Assembly (NCBI RefSeq): GCF_015864825.1
Contig: NZ_JADYWL010000006.1
Location: 186,001 to 250,000 of the forward strand
DNA from: Psychrobacter sp. NZS113
Lineage (GTDB): Bacteria; Pseudomonadota; Gammaproteobacteria; Pseudomonadales; Moraxellaceae
Direction: 5' to 3'
DNA length: 64,000 nt
Of this stretch, positions 991 through 44,450 are shown in pieces. The translations under genes were made by a program, and so were the position numbers. Below the pieces are notes generated by a model. It was not told the origin of the DNA. It did not search any database and was given only the letters and a program-made list of their open reading frames with translations. How positions within the stretch are numbered: position 1 is the stretch's first letter; the number at the start of each line of letters is the position of its first letter.

Positions 991-2385
991 TCAAAGCGGC
1001 TTTAGGCCATCATCCAAATGCTGCTCTGCTGTATCAAATTCAACACCGTAGTTTTTGGGTAAAATCATATCAAGTGCAATGGCGACGATACCTGACATGG
1101 TCACCGCTGAACCAAAGATATTACGGAATAGCTGCGGTGCTTGTGCGAATACATCAGGAACAAAAGCCACGCCCATTGATAGACCTAGAGAGGTTGCAAT
1201 GATTAAGATATTGCGATGTGTGAAGTTCACTGTTGATAGTATGCGAATACCAGCAGTCGCTACCGTTGCAAACATCAGCAATGTTACGCCACCAATGACG
1301 GGCTTGGGTAACTGGGTAAAGATAGCACCGAGGATAGGAAACATACCCATGGTGAATAAGATAGCGCCGACATAGAAACCAATATAACGGCTGGCAATAC
1401 CTGTCATCTGAATAACACCATTGTTCTGGCTAAAAGTCGTCACTGGGAACGTGTTAAATACGGCTGCAATCAATGAGTTGACACCATCACCTAGTACACC
1501 GCCTTTGATACGTTTTTCGTATACTGGGCCTTTGATTGGCTCACCTGAGATCATCGAAGTCGCTGTCAAATCACCTGATGTCTCAATACTGGTAATGACA
1601 TACATAAAGGCAATAGGAATAAAGGCCTGCCAGTCAAAACCAAAGCCGAACTTGAAAGGCACAGGCATCGTAAATAGAGGCGCTTCAGAGACTAGAGAAA
1701 AATCAATACGTCCCATAAAGACAGCAGCTATCAAACCAAGCATCAACCCAATAAATATCGCACTTGAGCGAATGACTTTATTGTTGACGATACTAATTAA
1801 TACCACACTGACCAACACACCACCGCCTAGTAGTAAGTTTTGCATACTACCAAAGTCTTCAGCACCGACACCGCCTGCCAAATCTGTCAAACCAACCTTA
1901 GTTAACGACAGACCGATAGTCACGATCACACAACCTGTCACGATTGGACTCATCAATGATTTGAGTTTGGTGATGAACTGACTTAAGAAGATTTCGACAA
2001 AGGCACCAAGAAATGATACCCCAAAGATGACAGAGAGAATTTCCTCTGGACTACCGCCCCTGTTCTTTACCACAAAGCCTGCTGCTAGTACCGCAGCTAA
2101 GAAGCCAAAACTGGTGCCCTGTAACGCCATTAAACCTGAACCCACTGGCCCAACTTTACGTGTTTGGATAAAGGTTGCAATACCTGAAACCATCAATGAC
2201 ATGCTGATGAGATAGGGGATGTGTTCCCCTAAACCCAAGACACCGCCTATGATTAATGATGGAGTAATGATACCAACGAAGCTGGCAAGTACGTGTTGTA
2301 CTGCCCCTAAAAATGCTTTTGCAGGAGCAGGACGGTCATGCAGTCCATACAATAAATCGGGGTTCCCTTGAGTGTGCTCACTCAT
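991..2385 (-). CDS. NCS2 family purine (xanthine/urate-type) permease
   Basis: A 464-residue integral membrane protein of the nucleobase:cation symporter-2 family, with about 12-14 hydrophobic segments. The family signature NTFPVTTFSQNNGVIQMTG spans the conserved Gln at about residue 320. This QNNGV version is characteristic of xanthine/urate carriers such as XanQ, whereas the uracil carriers have a different residue there. Proton-coupled uptake of a purine base across the inner membrane is therefore likely. The start at 2385 is preceded on the minus strand by an AGGAGG-like site, which supports it. A RutR-type palindrome about 300 bases upstream and the convergent RutR-like gene suggest nucleobase-responsive control. 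Exact substrate specificity cannot be read from sequence. Confidence 0.88.
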   Translation of the reverse strand: MSEHTQGNPDLLYGLHDRPAPAKAFLGAVQHVLASFVGIITPSLIIGGVLGLGEHIPYLISMSLMVSGIATFIQTRKVGPVGSGLMALQGTSFGFLAAVLAAGFVVKNRGGSPEEILSVIFGVSFLGAFVEIFLSQFITKLKSLMSPIVTGCVIVTIGLSLTKVGLTDLAGGVGAEDFGSMQNLLLGGGVLVSVVLISIVNNKVIRSSAIFIGLMLGLIAAVFMGRIDFSLVSEAPLFTMPVPFKFGFGFDWQAFIPIAFMYVITSIETSGDLTATSMISGEPIKGPVYEKRIKGGVLGDGVNSLIAAVFNTFPVTTFSQNNGVIQMTGIASRYIGFYVGAILFTMGMFPILGAIFTQLPKPVIGGVTLLMFATVATAGIRILSTVNFTHRNILIIATSLGLSMGVAFVPDVFAQAPQLFRNIFGSAVTMSGIVAIALDMILPKNYGVEFDTAEQHLDDGLKPL

Positions 2386-2685
2386 CTTGGCTTCCTCCTA
2401 AGGTGACTTTCAGTCCCAGCTCTATGGAGATTATTAAGCAATGCGATGATACATAGTGTCAATGCACTATAAATGCGTTACAGCGTCAGCCTCGCTTGAA
2501 GTATTCAATATACATCTACACTCGGTTGCCCTGTCACACTTTCAAACTGAATTGACTCTAGGTTAGAGAAGCAGTCGTATTGTTTAGCCATCTCACAAAG
2601 AGTCGCACTTATTTTTATGTGAATACATAAAAGTAGGTAGCTATTAGTTATTTGTGAGTCTAGCAAATAGCCATGATTACGAACC

Positions 2686-2699
2686 TGACTAATTGGTCA
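2686..2699. promoter_or_regulatory. RutR-type operator palindrome upstream of the permease
   Basis: TGACTAATTGGTCA is an imperfect inverted repeat that differs from the site at 90-103 by only two positions. It lies in the long leader upstream of the minus-strand permease gene. The pairing of the two sites with a TetR/RutR gene suggests one regulator acts on both. Confidence 0.6.
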
Positions 2700-2963
2700 A
2701 CAATCTAAGGGTATAGGGAAAGGGTTAGTTATTGCAACATTTTTTTAACATTAGTGTGTTTATTTCCAAAATAATGGTTATTTATTATAAGAATGTTTAG
2801 ATGTTTTTTGCATGTAAATGCCCGTTGTATAAGCCTTTGACTAAGAAGTGATGAGTAGGGTTTTATAAAGGGTCAGGTCTTTAGATTCTACTTAACGTGA
2901 AATTAATCATAGTAATTATTGCTAAATTGTTAATATTTAGTTAGGATACCTTTCGTTATTAAA

Positions 2964-2978
2964 TGCTAACAATTATCA
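2964..2978. promoter_or_regulatory. Fur box
   Basis: The reverse complement reads TGATAATTGTTAGCA, matching 13 of 15 positions of the Fur 7-1-7 consensus TGATAATnATTATCA. A wider symmetry (AATGCTAA at 2962-2969 with TTAGCATT at 2979-2986) surrounds it. It lies about 180 bases before the receptor gene. Confidence 0.75.
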
Positions 2979-3159
2979 TTAGCATTTTTATTTATAAGAT
3001 AGGTTTAGCGTTGTAAAAATGACCGTTCATCTGAACACCTATCATGAAAAGAGCAGTTATTAATCATTAATAAAGGCGATTATTTAAAATAATTAACGTT
3101 TGAAGAAATCGTCTCAAACTCTCCAGTCCTTAATAGAAAATAAAGTGAGTAAGTTCGTT

Positions 3160-39145: not shown

Positions 39146-41359
39146 GTGTTAGATATGAATAAAGAGCAAAGTAGTGATAGCAATGTAAATGACATTGTGG
39201 CTGTTGATAATAAAGCTTATATAGAGGGCAATAATAAGAGTTTGACCTCAGTGCCATGGCAGCGCTCAGAAGACGGTAGCTACTCGCCGAGCAGCTATAT
39301 TAATCGTGACCTATCTTTATTGCAGTTTCATCTACGTGTGCTAGCGCAGGCGGCCAGCCCTCGTCATCCGCTACTTGAGCGCCTGTTTTTCTTGATTATT
39401 TTTTCTTCAAACATCGATGAGTTTTTTGAGATTCGGGTCGCAGGCCTGATGCAAAAGCTCAATATTGGTGATGTCTCGACCAGCATTCATGGTATGCGTC
39501 CTAGTGAGGTACTGAACGAGATATCCACGGTGATGCACGATGCTATCGATGAGCAGTATCGTATTCTTAATGAAGTTGTCTTGCCAGCACTTGCTAAGGA
39601 AGACATCCGTTACCTAAAACGCGATGAGTTGAATGCTGAACAGTCGGCTTGGATGAAACGCTATTTCACTGAGCAAGTATCGCCAGTGTTGACGCCGATT
39701 AGTATTGATCCTGCGCATCCGTTCCCACGTCTGGTTAATAAAAGCTTAAATTTCATCGCTACCTTAGAAGGCAAAGATGCTTTTGGTCGTGATATCAATC
39801 TGGCGATTGTGCCAGCACCGCGCAGCCTGCCACGTGTGATTCGTCTACCTGATGAATTGACAGGTGGCAAAGAGCATCATGTCATGCTATCTGCCATCAT
39901 TCATGAGCATATCGGCGAGCTATTTCCTGGTATGAGTGTGACAGGGTGTCATCAGTTCAGGTTGACTCGTAATGCTGATTTAGATTTGGCTGATGATGTC
40001 GAAGATATTGCCAAAGCGCTAGAGGGTGAACTAGAGAATCGCCGGTTTGGTGATAAAGTCCGCTTAGAAGTCACAATGGACTGTCCGACGCATATCAGTG
40101 ACTATTTGCTCAATGAGTTTGAGCTGCATGACAATCAGCTATACCGCGTCAATGGTCCGGTCAACTTAACACGGTTGCTGTTTGATTTTAATATTCCAGC
40201 GCTGCGTTATGAGCCATTTACGCATGTGATACCGAAAGAGTTCCGCCGTGAGATGGACAAGCTGGACAAAGCGACCAGTATGTTTGCGGCTATGCGCAAA
40301 AGAGATGTGCTCGTGCATCATCCTTTTCATGCGTTTTCGCCAATTATCAATTTATTGTGGCAAGCCGCCAGCGATCCAAAAGTGCTAGCGATTAAGCAAA
40401 CCCTATATCGCTCAGGCACCAATTCAGAAATCGTCAAAGCACTTGCCGCTGCTGCTCGTAATGGTAAAGAAGTGACTGCTGTCATCGAGCTGCGCGCGCG
40501 TTTTGATGAAGCCTCTAATATTGCTGTTGCCAACTATTTGCAAGAAGCAGGCGCAGTTGTAGTCTACGGTATCGTCGGTTATAAAACCCATGCCAAGCTT
40601 ATGCTTATCGTACGCCGTGAGGACGACCGTATCCGCCGTTATGTGCATTTAGGTACGGGTAACTATCATGCTGCCAACGCAAAAGTCTATACCGACTATG
40701 GTTTGTTTAGCGCAGATCCTGACATCTCTGAAGACGTCCATAAAATATTCCAAGAGTTAACAGGCATGGGCAAACCTGCCAATCTCAAAAAGCTATTACA
40801 TGCACCATTTACGTTGCATGATAAATTGATACGCTTTATCGATGATGAGATCGCACATGCAAAAGCAGGCAAACGCGCTCATATTATTGTGAAAGTTAAT
40901 GCCCTGACTGAGCGTCGACTGATTGCTAAGTTATATGACGCCTCGCAAGTAGGGGTCAAAATCGAGCTGATTTTGCGTTCTATGTGTTGTTTACGTCCAC
41001 AAGTAAAAGGTCTGTCTGAAAATATTACAGTACGCTCTGTGATCGGCCGGTTTTTAGAGCATACGCGTATTTATTATTTTTATAACAATGGTGATGAGCG
41101 CTTATATTGTGGCAGTGCCGACTGGATGGATCGTAACTTATTCCATCGCGTAGAAGTGGCATTTCCCATTGAAGACAAAAAACTTTTTAAGCAAGTCTAT
41201 CAAGATGGATTGCTCAGTTATCTAAAAGACAATACTCAAGCTTGGACACTAGACGGTAATGGTGTGTGGACACATCTGCAATCAGTAGCGGGTGAGACAC
41301 CGTATGTTGCCCAAGAACACCTATTAAAGGTTATCAATGGGGTGGGAGATTCAGTCTAG
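39146..41359 (+). CDS. ppk: polyphosphate kinase 1
   Basis: A 737-residue PPK1 that makes polyphosphate from ATP. The N domain begins at [17 protein letters not shown]. The catalytic domain has [23 protein letters not shown], the phospho-histidine region [14 protein letters not shown] and VHLGTGNYH, and [23 protein letters not shown]. The GTG at 39146 with AAGGA seven bases upstream is chosen because no in-frame ATG gives a better start. A non-conserved polar leader of about 50 residues precedes the conserved N-terminus. Polyphosphate is a stress reserve, which may bear on the small hydrophilic stress-like genes that follow. Confidence 0.96.
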
Positions 41360-41412: not shown

Positions 41413-41450
41413 AAAACCAAGCGCTGGTAGATACTGGCGCTTGGTTTTTA
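41413..41450 (+). terminator. terminator after ppk
   Basis: AAAACCAAGCGC (41413-41424) pairs perfectly with GCGCTTGGTTTT (41437-41448), followed by further T. It separates ppk from the small-protein cluster. Confidence 0.9.
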
Positions 41451-41635
41451 TTTGGGCAAATGATCTGTATAAGTTACAAACTGTCTTGTAACCTCACATT
41501 TATTCACATATTGATACGGCAGTACACTGGTGAGGTGCGCAACGTTCTACTTATAATCAATAGCAGTCCTACTAGATAGGCAGCTACATAAAAGAGCAAG
41601 TAAAACCAATAAATTATAAAAATAGGAAAATCATT

Positions 41636-41806
41636 ATGAGTACGACAAACAACGACAGCTCAGATATCAAACAAGCAGCTGAAAACGCTGACAGCAAACA
41701 AATTGCACAAAACCTTAAGAGTGATAAAAAAGTAGATGCGCCTGAATCATTAAGTGATGAAGAACAAACCTCATTTATCGAAGATGAGCTACGCACTGAT
41801 AAATAG
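41636..41806 (+). CDS. small hydrophilic protein 1 of a four-gene cluster
   Basis: A 56-residue protein with no Cys, Trp or hydrophobic segment. It is rich in Ser, Asp, Glu, Lys and Asn (start MSTTNNDSSDIKQAAENAD). It is too polar to fold as a normal globule, so it is probably disordered. The ATG at 41636 has AGGAA about seven bases upstream, so translation is credible. It is first of four such genes in the same direction, ending at 42896. I know no function. A role in water or osmotic stress is an inference from composition only. Confidence 0.7.
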   Translation: MSTTNNDSSDIKQAAENADSKQIAQNLKSDKKVDAPESLSDEEQTSFIEDELRTDK

Positions 41807-41967
41807 TCATTGCGATATAACCTTTTATTTAACGTTCAACAAACTATAGTTAATCCAGTTTAGAAGAAATACAAGGCAACCGAGTGTAGACGTATATTTA
41901 ATACTTCAAGCAAGGTTAATGCGGTAACTCTTTTATAGAGGATTGACTACAACTTGAGGGATACGCT

Positions 41968-42219
41968 ATGACAACTGATAGTCAGCCAAATAATGAAGAA
42001 AAAGTAGTAGTTAACGATTCGGCAGCATCACATCCAAACAACCCACGGGATAGTTATGAAGGCCGCAAGCATGAACCGAAGATCGACGGTCCCGAGCAAG
42101 CCTCTCAAGAAACAGATGAGGTATACGTTGATCCACGCAAAGAGGAAGATCTACCTGCTGGTGGGAAAAACGTTGCAGATTTGAATGTTCATGACTTGAG
42201 TCAGAAAGGTAACAATTAA
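41968..42219 (+). CDS. small hydrophilic protein 2
   Basis: An 83-residue protein lacking Cys and Trp and any membrane segment. It is rich in Asn, Asp, Glu, Pro and Lys, with short patterns such as NNPRDSYEGRKHEPKIDGPE and KEEDLPAGGKNVADLNVHD. Likely intrinsically disordered. The ATG at 41968 has GAGGG about eight bases upstream. It lies 161 bases after protein 1. It is not clearly homologous to proteins 1, 3 or 4 beyond composition. Function unknown. Confidence 0.8.
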   Translation: MTTDSQPNNEEKVVVNDSAASHPNNPRDSYEGRKHEPKIDGPEQASQETDEVYVDPRKEEDLPAGGKNVADLNVHDLSQKGNN

Positions 42220-42331
42220 AGATCGGCTGATGTCGAGAGGATCTGATAAGCAGCTTTAGTAATGAACAGCTTTTAATGATAAGCATCATAGCAGTCGAAA
42301 ACAGACGAATAAAAATAATAAGGATACGACC

Positions 42332-42631
42332 ATGGAAAATAAAAAATCAGCATTATCAGATGACCAGATAGAAAAGAAGATCACTGAGAACAAAGGAACG
42401 GACACGTTTAAAGAAGGTGTCGTTCATTCAGAACACGTAAATGATAACGACAATCCTGCACGTCAGCCTGACCGCCGTGACCAAGAAGGCAATGCTTTTG
42501 ATGACGGTATCAATGAGCATACCGTTACTAATGATCCATCTAAGAGTGAAGGTATCAATAATTTAAACCGTTATGCAAACGCTGATAATGCGCAATCGCG
42601 TGTGTTGAACCCTGATGAAAAAGACAGATAG
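42332..42631 (+). CDS. small hydrophilic protein 3
   Basis: A 99-residue protein, again without Cys, Trp or membrane segments, dominated by Asp, Asn, Glu, Lys and Arg. Recurrent short clusters (DNDNPARQPDRRDQEGN, NDPSKSEGINNLNRYANADN) suggest low-complexity disorder. The ATG at 42332 follows AAGGATACGACC, with AAGGA seven bases upstream. The gap to protein 2 is 112 bases. I do not recognise it. Confidence 0.8.
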   Translation: MENKKSALSDDQIEKKITENKGTDTFKEGVVHSEHVNDNDNPARQPDRRDQEGNAFDDGINEHTVTNDPSKSEGINNLNRYANADNAQSRVLNPDEKDR

Positions 42632-42695
42632 TATTTACTTAGTAATTTATATTTGAATAAGACAATAATAATAACGACGAGAATGAGGTGTCATT

Positions 42696-42896
42696 ATGAG
42701 CATGCCAGACGATAAGGAAGTTAATCAGAGTCATAAGTTAAAAGATGCAGATGATAACAATGGCATTGTCGCTGACGATGCACTACAGAAAGCCAATCCT
42801 GCTGCTGCAGAAAGAGCCACAGACGATCACGACCCACATAACATTGCCAAAAATAACAAACAGTATGATAGTCCATTAATGAAAGACGATGAATAA
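42696..42896 (+). CDS. small hydrophilic protein 4
   Basis: A 66-residue polar protein without Cys or Trp (start MSMPDDKEVNQSHKLKDADD, end SPLMKDDE). It is dominated by Asp, Asn, Lys and Ala. GAGG lies upstream of the ATG at 42696. It is the last of the four-gene set and is 64 bases after protein 3. A 23-base perfect terminator stem follows at 42982-43035. Confidence 0.78.
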   Translation: MSMPDDKEVNQSHKLKDADDNNGIVADDALQKANPAAAERATDDHDPHNIAKNNKQYDSPLMKDDE

Positions 42897-42981
42897 TGAT
42901 TTATTGTGATGGTTCTGGACTTAACAAAGAATGTCATAAGTAAAAACGTCAATAGACAGATCTAATTAGAATTAGAATCAG

Positions 42982-43035
42982 AAAAGGTACTACTACGGTT
43001 CAAGATATTAACCTTGAACCGTAGTAGTACCTTTT
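42982..43035. terminator. 23-bp perfect terminator
   Basis: The arms 42982-43004 and 43013-43035 are exact inverted repeats (core GGTACTACTACGGTT) with an 8-base loop and a T run. It ends the small-protein cluster and also the convergent miaE gene. Confidence 0.93.
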
Positions 43036-43078
43036 TTATCTAAACGATTATCAGTATCTAAACAACTACTAGCAATAC

Positions 43079-43831
43079 CTAAGCAGGTGTACCGCTATGA
43101 AAGCGTAATTCAGCATCCGGACTAGATATCAGCTCTGACTCTACTTCTTTAAAGAAAGCCACTCTCTCATCAATATTGTCTTCAGACAGTGATTGAGCCA
43201 AGGCCAAGTAATCCTCGAAATGACGACTTTCTGACTTAAGTAAGTAACGATAGTACTTTGCCAAGCGTTCATCATTGATAACCTCGGCTAGCGACGCAAA
43301 TCGTTCGCAAGAGCGTGCTTCAATGAATGCTCCAATGATTAGTACATCGACCATCGCTGCTGGCTCGTAAGTTCGCTTGTGCTTTAGCATACCTTTAGCA
43401 TAGCGTCCAGCACTGAGGTATTTCCACTCTAGACCACGGTCATTCATGATGCCTAATACCTGCTCGTAATGTAGCATTTCCTCACGTATCAACTGTGCCA
43501 ATTTACACTGCAAATCATAGGAAAACTCATAGCGGAATATGAGATTCATGGCGGTGCCTGCTGCTTTCTTTTCGCAATTGGCGTGGTCCTGAATGATTAA
43601 TGGCAAGTTATTAATCGCAGCATCTACCCATGCTTGAGTGGTTCGAGCACCCAAGAAATTATAGACAGGGGTGAGGTCTACCTTTATAGGCGTCCGTAGC
43701 TGAGTGATATCAGCACTTTCTCTTTCTATGCCGTCTTTTACCATATCGTTGTCGTTCATAAGTTCATCGTTTAAGGCATTATCACTGCTGTTAATAGGTT
43801 TCATATTTTCTTTGTTCATAGTCTCTGTCAT
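43079..43831 (-). CDS. miaE: tRNA-(ms2io6A37) hydroxylase (MiaE)
   Basis: A 250-residue ferritin-like diiron enzyme that hydroxylates the modified adenosine at position 37 of certain tRNAs. Four-helix iron-site motifs are seen as CEKKAAG, EEMLHYEQV (ExxH), EARSCERF and ESRHFEDY (ExxH). The N-terminal ~45 residues are polar and not conserved. The ATG at 43831 lacks a clear ribosome site, so a later Met (for example at residue 5) may be used. It is convergent with the small-protein cluster and ends before a shared terminator. A MiaA/MiaB pathway would be needed elsewhere in the genome. Confidence 0.9.
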   Translation of the reverse strand: MTETMNKENMKPINSSDNALNDELMNDNDMVKDGIERESADITQLRTPIKVDLTPVYNFLGARTTQAWVDAAINNLPLIIQDHANCEKKAAGTAMNLIFRYEFSYDLQCKLAQLIREEMLHYEQVLGIMNDRGLEWKYLSAGRYAKGMLKHKRTYEPAAMVDVLIIGAFIEARSCERFASLAEVINDERLAKYYRYLLKSESRHFEDYLALAQSLSEDNIDERVAFFKEVESELISSPDAELRFHSGTPA

Positions 43832-44450
43832 GGTTTAGTATTTGGTACGTATTGGCTAAACATAAAAATTGGATAGATAACTAATAACTATAAGTCGATA
43901 CAGCAATGATTACTTACTGTTTATCTGGGCCTAATTATCTGTGCATATGAAATCACTGAGAATAGGCCTTAGGCTCGACAGTTTATAGGTCATCATTATT
44001 GTACAACCCCAACATTTACTTAGTGAATGGTGTTTTCTTGTTTATTTCTTTATTTGATAGTAGGATAAGATTTTGCTAAAGCAGAATCTTTCTTACTATT
44101 GATATATCAATCATCACTTGGTGATGGGTAGTGAGTATTATAACTCATGCCAATACGACATAAAGCTATTGATACACAGGTATACGCCGTTTGAAATAAA
44201 TGGCTATATTTATGACCTGTATCGTTTTCTATAATGTTATTAGCAAGCGTGCTTCAACGCCGCAAAAAATGTATGCTAGTAGCATAGCACAAATGTTTAA
44301 AACGCTATTCATGACAAGCTTATATGATAGAACAACAAGTTTGATTCGTACTGCATCTAAACTTGGAATAGATGTCTAAGACCGACAATGTCCAATCATT
44401 GCGGTAGTAACTTCGTATTTACACTCTCACGAACAGATAAGGATAACAAC
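43832..44450. other. long divergent region with palindromes, miaE / glcB
   Basis: About 620 bases with no supportable gene. Three symmetrical motifs stand out: ATTGATATATCAAT at 44098-44111, CATCACTTGGTGATG directly next to it at 44112-44126, and TATGCTAGTAGCATA at 44272-44286. They are candidates for regulator sites of malate synthase, but no known consensus was matched. Confidence 0.5.

Follow-up and report, generated by a model that had tools for sequence, protein, structure and literature searches.

Four small hydrophilic genes between ppk and miaE

The stretch of 64,000 nt analysed here (the window) belongs to a Psychrobacter genome of 3.37 Mb in 56 contigs. Between ppk (39146–41359, forward strand) and miaE (43079–43831, reverse strand) lie four forward-strand ORFs that we call g1 (41636–41806, 56 aa), g2 (41968–42219, 83 aa), g3 (42332–42631, 99 aa), and g4 (42696–42896, 66 aa), and all four products are predicted to be disordered. 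Each ORF is preceded on the same strand by a ribosome-binding-like sequence: AGGA at 41624–41627 for g1, GAGGGA at 41956–41961 for g2, AAGGA at 42320–42324 for g3, and GAGG at 42685–42688 for g4. The original prediction had this arrangement right, as it had the composition: the four proteins contain neither Cys nor Trp, and Asp, Asn, Glu, and Lys make up 40–45% of their residues. It had also held g1 to be too short for normal gene callers, which is not so, as the gene measures 171 nt and the usual limit is lower (90 nt in Prodigal). A filter for hydrophilic ORFs (GRAVY < −1, <250 aa) passes just six of the window's 202 ORFs with 50 codons or more, namely g1–g4 and two more (GRAVY −1.10 and −1.13) that both contain Trp, so the grouping is no by-product of base composition. 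Hence g1–g4 are the sole strongly hydrophilic, Cys- and Trp-free small ORFs in the 64-kb window.

Terminator-like hairpins are found on both sides of the four genes. The one after ppk (41413–41448, forward strand) has a 16-pair stem (−23.4 kcal/mol, z −7.1) that none of 200 shuffles equalled; it is absent from the list of a consensus terminator scan and has a similar position in aligned relatives. This hairpin and a conserved promoter-like block, described below, intervene between ppk and g1, and we therefore judge co-transcription of the two unlikely; the link to ppk drawn in the original prediction is not supported as one of co-expression. The strong hairpin after g4 (42980–43037; −39.4 kcal/mol, z −12.4) is listed as terminator-like on both strands and is usable by miaE too. 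Alignments of the three inner spacers contain little that is conserved apart from the ribosome-binding sequence. The g1–g2 spacer (41807–41967), 161 nt long in the window, measures 56 nt in L115, the nearest relative.

Coding evidence, distribution, and gene order

g1–g4 are genuine genes that encode proteins, and purifying selection acts on them. Pooled dN/dS is 0.149 for g1, 0.136 for g2, 0.135 for g3, and 0.151 for g4, compared with 0.040 for ppk and 0.084 for miaE; these values come from 37 selected, mutually non-independent species pairs with a ppk dS of 0.1–0.8, of which 32, 35, 36, and 27 were usable for g1 to g4. Relative to L115, third codon positions account for 10 of 11 changes in g1, 32 of 44 in g2, 23 of 32 in g3, and 13 of 20 in g4. 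The prediction had been staked on conservation of the reading frames in related genomes, and the frames are indeed kept, with all four ratios between 0.135 and 0.151.

Profile searches matched 96 of 105 Psychrobacter genomes for g1, 91 of 96 for g2 (whose draw gave none in other genera), 101 of 105 for g3, and 78 of 96 for g4; these counts are genus rows in the family draws, and some of the matches are the profile-building sequences themselves. The g3 profile found at least 64 loci in named genomes, and among the matches listed all are titled Psychrobacter. Beyond Psychrobacter, one sister genus (g7) has both g1 and g3, in four genomes. A plasmid collection searched with g3 and g2 yielded no match for either.

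The order ppk–g1–g2–g3–g4–miaE, and the strand, are kept by the genes present in all 71 ppk loci compared (58 fetched stretches, 12 loci from matches, and the window; in one, miaE lies beyond the matched stretch), a figure that is conditional because loci were picked for carrying at least one of g1–g4. All four genes are present in 47 of these loci; g4 is absent from ten and g1 from six, the four sister-genus loci hold just g1 and g3, and the remaining four show other patterns. The same four-gene order in other Moraxellaceae had been named as a check: the order is supported in Psychrobacter and in part in the one sister genus, but not in the other genera examined. Single genomes depart further, with ppk directly adjoining miaE and no gene between them in G111, g1 alone retained in G145, and g3 alone in G179.

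Two rearrangements were seen within the cassette. In the sister genus (L159–L162) the g2 slot between g1 and g3 holds a different hydrophilic ORF of 116–207 aa, with no relation to g1–g4 detectable by profile comparison. In L122 (G153) a 250-codon ORF at 2265–3017, IS transposase-like by eye, separates g1 from g2; since g2–g4 are still open there despite the insertion, they may have another promoter or be silent.

Predicted disorder and fixed motifs

GRAVY is −1.30 for g1, −1.46 for g2, −1.59 for g3, and −1.41 for g4, and the window's four proteins are strongly acidic (net charge −7 to −9). The disorder suggested earlier from composition is supported by prediction: the charge–hydropathy boundary places all four among disordered proteins, together with every one of 115 diverse orthologues (25, 29, 33, and 28 for g1 to g4). 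AlphaFold2, run on g3 and g4 only, gave a mean pLDDT of 59.9 and pTM of 0.19 for g3 and of 57.5 and 0.14 for g4, both from shallow alignments (33 and 28 rows). In the wider families Cys occurs in 3 of 64 g1, 3 of 66 g2, 2 of 69 g3, and 1 of 53 g4 sequences, and Trp in 2 of 64, 0 of 66, 6 of 69, and 0 of 53; these ORFs were read from the earliest start codon available and may be too long.

Each family carries a motif of its own: SDIK.AAE..D..QI..NL ... TxFI.D.LRTDK in g1, SYEGRKHxPxIDGPQQxSQETDExYxDPRKEExLPAGGKN in g2, SEHVNDxDNPARQPDRRDQxG ... NRYANxDNAQTRxLNPDEKD in g3, and LKDADDNxGIVPDDALQKVNPAAAERxTxDHDPH in g4. The diverse sets have 7 invariant columns in g1 (n = 25), 15 in g2 (n = 29), 17 in g3 (n = 33), and 13 in g4 (n = 28). 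g3 measures 99 aa in the window and 86–290 aa in relatives, the variable part being N-terminal. Fixed motifs combined with disorder and with this length variation argue against a role resting on composition only. In mutual profile comparisons every pair of g1–g4 scored below 1% probability, so that we regard them as four families in one style.

Motifs as fixed as these, unusual for bulk protectants, raise the alternative that g1–g4 regulate by binding partners, as disordered adaptor, anti-adaptor, or scaffold peptides whose motifs are binding sites for specific machines, and the g3 N-terminal linker, which ranges from very short to long while the motifs stay fixed, fits this as well. Yet Pfam, NCBIfam, and PHROG gave no family, fold, or partner hint, g3 has no solved relative, and a shared physical role is the simpler fit for four proteins of the same composition in one operon. 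We consider partner-binding regulators unlikely and favour the shared physical role.

Two further sequence features concern metals, which some dehydrins bind. Long forms of g3 (L125, L129, and L166) have histidine-rich stretches, and the g4 motif holds an invariant D-x-D-x-H (DHDPH); by analogy, both could bind metal.

No family in Pfam, NCBIfam, or PHROG matched g1–g4 above cut-off or better than E 0.02, and the same holds for PDB sequences. LEA/dehydrin Pfam families gave nothing above cut-off in the window's g1–g4 or in 29 g2 members. We also considered action through an amphipathic helix of the group-3 LEA type and rejected it, as shuffled sequences had a hydrophobic moment at least as high in 4639, 848, and 3514 of 5000 cases for segments of g1, g3, and g4. 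The original prediction had called the proteins hydrophilin-like. The hydrophilin criteria, as excerpted from PMC4190154, are Gly >6%, GRAVY < −1, and a mean hydrophilicity >1. On these excerpted criteria the likeness stands for hydropathy, with GRAVY < −1 in all four, but not for class membership, since glycine amounts to 0% in g1, 6.0% in g2 (just above the criterion), 5.1% in g3, and 1.5% in g4. Glycine and GRAVY criteria are both satisfied in 0 of 25 g1, 18 of 29 g2, 6 of 33 g3, and 0 of 28 g4 sequences of the diverse sets. Because three of the four miss the glycine criterion we do not file g1–g4 as hydrophilins; that they work like hydrophilins is plausible by analogy.

A 61-nt conserved block upstream of g1

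Alignment of the ppk–g1 spacers revealed an ultra-conserved block of 61 nt (41471–41531, forward strand). It is found at 42 or more matching positions of 61 in 60 of 72 loci, and within those 60, which were selected by similarity to the block, 22 of 61 columns never vary and pairwise identity averages 0.857, compared with 0.324 and 0.377 in the 20 nt on either side. An unselected control of 54 loci gave a mean best match of 51.8/61 for the block, equal to that of the best ppk windows, and about 31/61 for the rest of the ppk–g1 and g4–miaE spacers. In the other 12 of the 72 loci it is absent or degenerate; all four sister-genus loci that keep g1 and g3 are among these. A putative −10 element, TATAAT, lies at 41552–41557 on the forward strand at a fixed distance from the block; in 58 of the 60 loci the −10 (TATAAT or TATACT) begins exactly 20 nt past it. 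No −35 element is recognisable upstream of this putative −10. A consensus promoter scan of the window was uninformative, with 6 promoters found where 5.6 were expected, and the proposed g1 promoter is not among them.

Forward-strand candidate half-sites recur within the block at steps of 10 bp. They are TTACA at 41474–41478 and TCACA at 41494–41498, each in 60 of 60 loci; 41504–41508, TCACA in 56 of 60, ATACA in 3, and ACACA in 1; 41514–41518, ATAC plus a variable base in most; and 41524–41528, ACACT in 52 of 60 with the ending ACT in all. The second register (41484–41488) has no TxACA. Five fully invariant AC steps (columns 6, 26, 36, 46, and 56), which sit in TTACA, TCACA, TCACA, ATAC, and ACACT, share one 10-bp phase, and of 64 named Psychrobacter loci 56 conform to a strict version of the array. 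General tests for a period of 10 in column information were not significant, with 1143 of 20,000 column shuffles and 4494 of 20,000 segment shuffles reaching the observed power. As these tests failed and the AC phase was noticed post hoc, we rate the reading of the block as a binding array for an OmpR/RstA-family response regulator as likely and not higher.

A model of the block placed its best match at the cassette in 8 of 8 genomes (53.6–86.6 bits). Among the 150 candidates scored per genome, out of 434–1044, no second strong copy was found in the eight genomes, the next best reaching 16.1 bits (E 0.026). A single copy is odd for the site of a global regulator. Together with the weak period-10 tests, and given that TCACA is also a CRP half-site, it lends some weight to the alternative that the block is something else, for example the site of a CRP-type or other activator, and the operon a housekeeping one. 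The TCACA units, however, are direct and not inverted repeats, and the fixed helical-turn spacing and absent −35 fit a head-to-tail activator adjoining the −10. We think this alternative rather unlikely, and a response-regulator array remains our preferred reading.

A site of PhoB, which shares its DNA-binding family with OmpR and RstA, would instead place the operon within phosphate or polyphosphate physiology. The fixed position beside ppk and CTGTC-like letters seen by eye in the block would suit this. Against it, the hairpin intervenes between ppk and g1, the repeat units are spaced by 10 bp and not by the 11 bp of Pho boxes, and the CTGTC stretch falls where conservation within the block is lowest (1.0–1.3 bits). 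The strong acidity of g1–g4 also makes it unlikely that they bind polyphosphate. We hold a phosphate role to be very improbable, and keep to the OmpR/RstA-family array.

Other features of the region were set aside or are recorded here. A structured regulatory RNA in the leader was rejected, as the block had zero conserved pairs predicted in 32 sequences; Rfam has no match at the cassette. The inverted repeat GTTACAA-N6-TTGTAAC, perfect in the window, was rejected as an operator because its second arm varies in relatives. In the maf–rng spacer, orthologous between the two species, L283 (G023) and L286 (G141) have weak matches to the block model (E 0.078 and 0.19) with the core CACATAATGATACGGC; the regulator of the cassette may have a second target here. 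A second conserved non-coding block (44000–44085) lies between miaE and the gene at 44388, which by eye looks like malate synthase G; of 54 loci, some of which may end short, 35 match the 61-nt segment starting at 44000 and 34 the one starting at 44020 at no fewer than 45 of 61 positions.

Candidate regulators

Read as direct TxACA units one helical turn apart, the candidate half-sites of the block would resemble the RstA box and the ompF/ompC-type arrays of the OmpR/PhoB family. Promoter arrays of that family are usually far less conserved than the g1 block, which in addition is single-copy in the eight genomes searched. An excerpt of PMC4117788 gives the RstA consensus as TACATNTNGTTACA and the classic box as TACA-N6-TACA, a 10-bp repeat. 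The genome of the window encodes an RstA/BfmR-type regulator (L295) with 45% identity to E. coli RstA over 234 aa, which also matches the A. baumannii-type BfmR receiver chains 5hm6/6br7 (E 2.8e-67), and an OmpR-type regulator (L297) with 67% identity to OmpR over 230 aa. According to an excerpt of PMC13232832, expression of an A. baumannii cluster that includes the hydrophilins dtpA and dtpB is lost when bfmR is mutated; by analogy with this excerpted result, we take BfmR as the first candidate. No BfmR binding consensus was found in the literature searched.

A g1 homologue in a second genus

Beyond the sister genus, g1 has weak matches in nine genomes (E 1.9e-4 to 6e-3) of a genus that we label g15 and that is probably Acinetobacter, judging by gene content; g4 has marginal matches in two g15 genomes (E 0.004 and 0.005). 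In the five of the nine that were examined, the g1 match is the C-terminal part of a hydrophilic protein of 116–134 aa, longer than g1 and encoded elsewhere in the genome, which shares with g1 the pattern A.E.iD..ql..NLK...P..(A/T)PFI. Profile comparison gave a probability of 93% (E 2.9e-7), and a reverse search with the g15 profile over 2673 ORFs from Psychrobacter and g7 loci picked up 62 ORFs at E 1, all of them g1. On the strength of these two results, we take the C-terminal similarity to indicate homology.

Two observations by eye touch on this family. In L250 (G130) a 56-codon ORF at the place of g1 (2714–2884), unreported by the g1 profile, ends in NPAPFIDKDLES and appears intermediate between g1 and its g15 counterparts. 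Upstream of the g15 homologue in L238, L239, and L241, and absent in L242, is TTACAAAGC, 20 bp after ATACA, a combination reminiscent of the Psychrobacter array.

Discussion

We propose that g1–g4 form a self-contained, stress-switched operon of four unrelated acidic disordered protectants, an account that we think about as likely to be right as wrong; the genes, the selection on them, their order, their predicted disorder, and the conserved block are what the sequences establish, and from them we infer the single transcript, the regulator, the inducing signal, and the protection. An envelope, osmotic, or drying signal would lead to phosphorylation of a regulator, of BfmR/RstA type as first and OmpR as second candidate, that reads the 61-nt block. 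The phosphorylated regulator would fill the array adjoining the −10 and activate one promoter, and a single g1–g4 transcript would end at the hairpin at 42980–43037. The four proteins would then accumulate and shield cell components through their conserved motifs plus charge and hydration. The set may amount to a protection kit against drying, salt, or freezing.

In a bolder version, which we regard as quite unlikely, the locus would be a genus-wide modular island of disordered proteins in which four motif-bearing families act as a mixed shield or condensate under one BfmR/OmpR-type promoter and membership is exchanged; the idea of exchange comes from the fifth unrelated disordered protein in the g2 slot of the sister genus.

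Psychrobacter is a model for cold, dry, and salty habitats. If the proposal is true, g1–g4 would be a system in which to test composition against motif in bacterial disordered protectants, and could show whether several such protectants must cooperate; the 61-nt block offers a direct handle on the inducing signal.

No description of the cassette was found in the literature searched. Disordered stress protectants as such are known, and what appears new here is their grouping as four unrelated families in one proposed operon, under an almost invariant promoter. LEA/dehydrin-type stress proteins are alike in composition, disorder, and presumed shielding role. Hydrophilins of E. coli and yeast and DtpA/DtpB of A. 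baumannii are likewise very hydrophilic and predicted to be disordered. DtpA/DtpB come from the same bacterial family (Acinetobacter), and a BfmR-type regulator is also encoded in the window's genome. The Dtp hydrophilins, compared here by description only, adjoin katE, whereas g1–g4 comprise four unrelated families and adjoin ppk.
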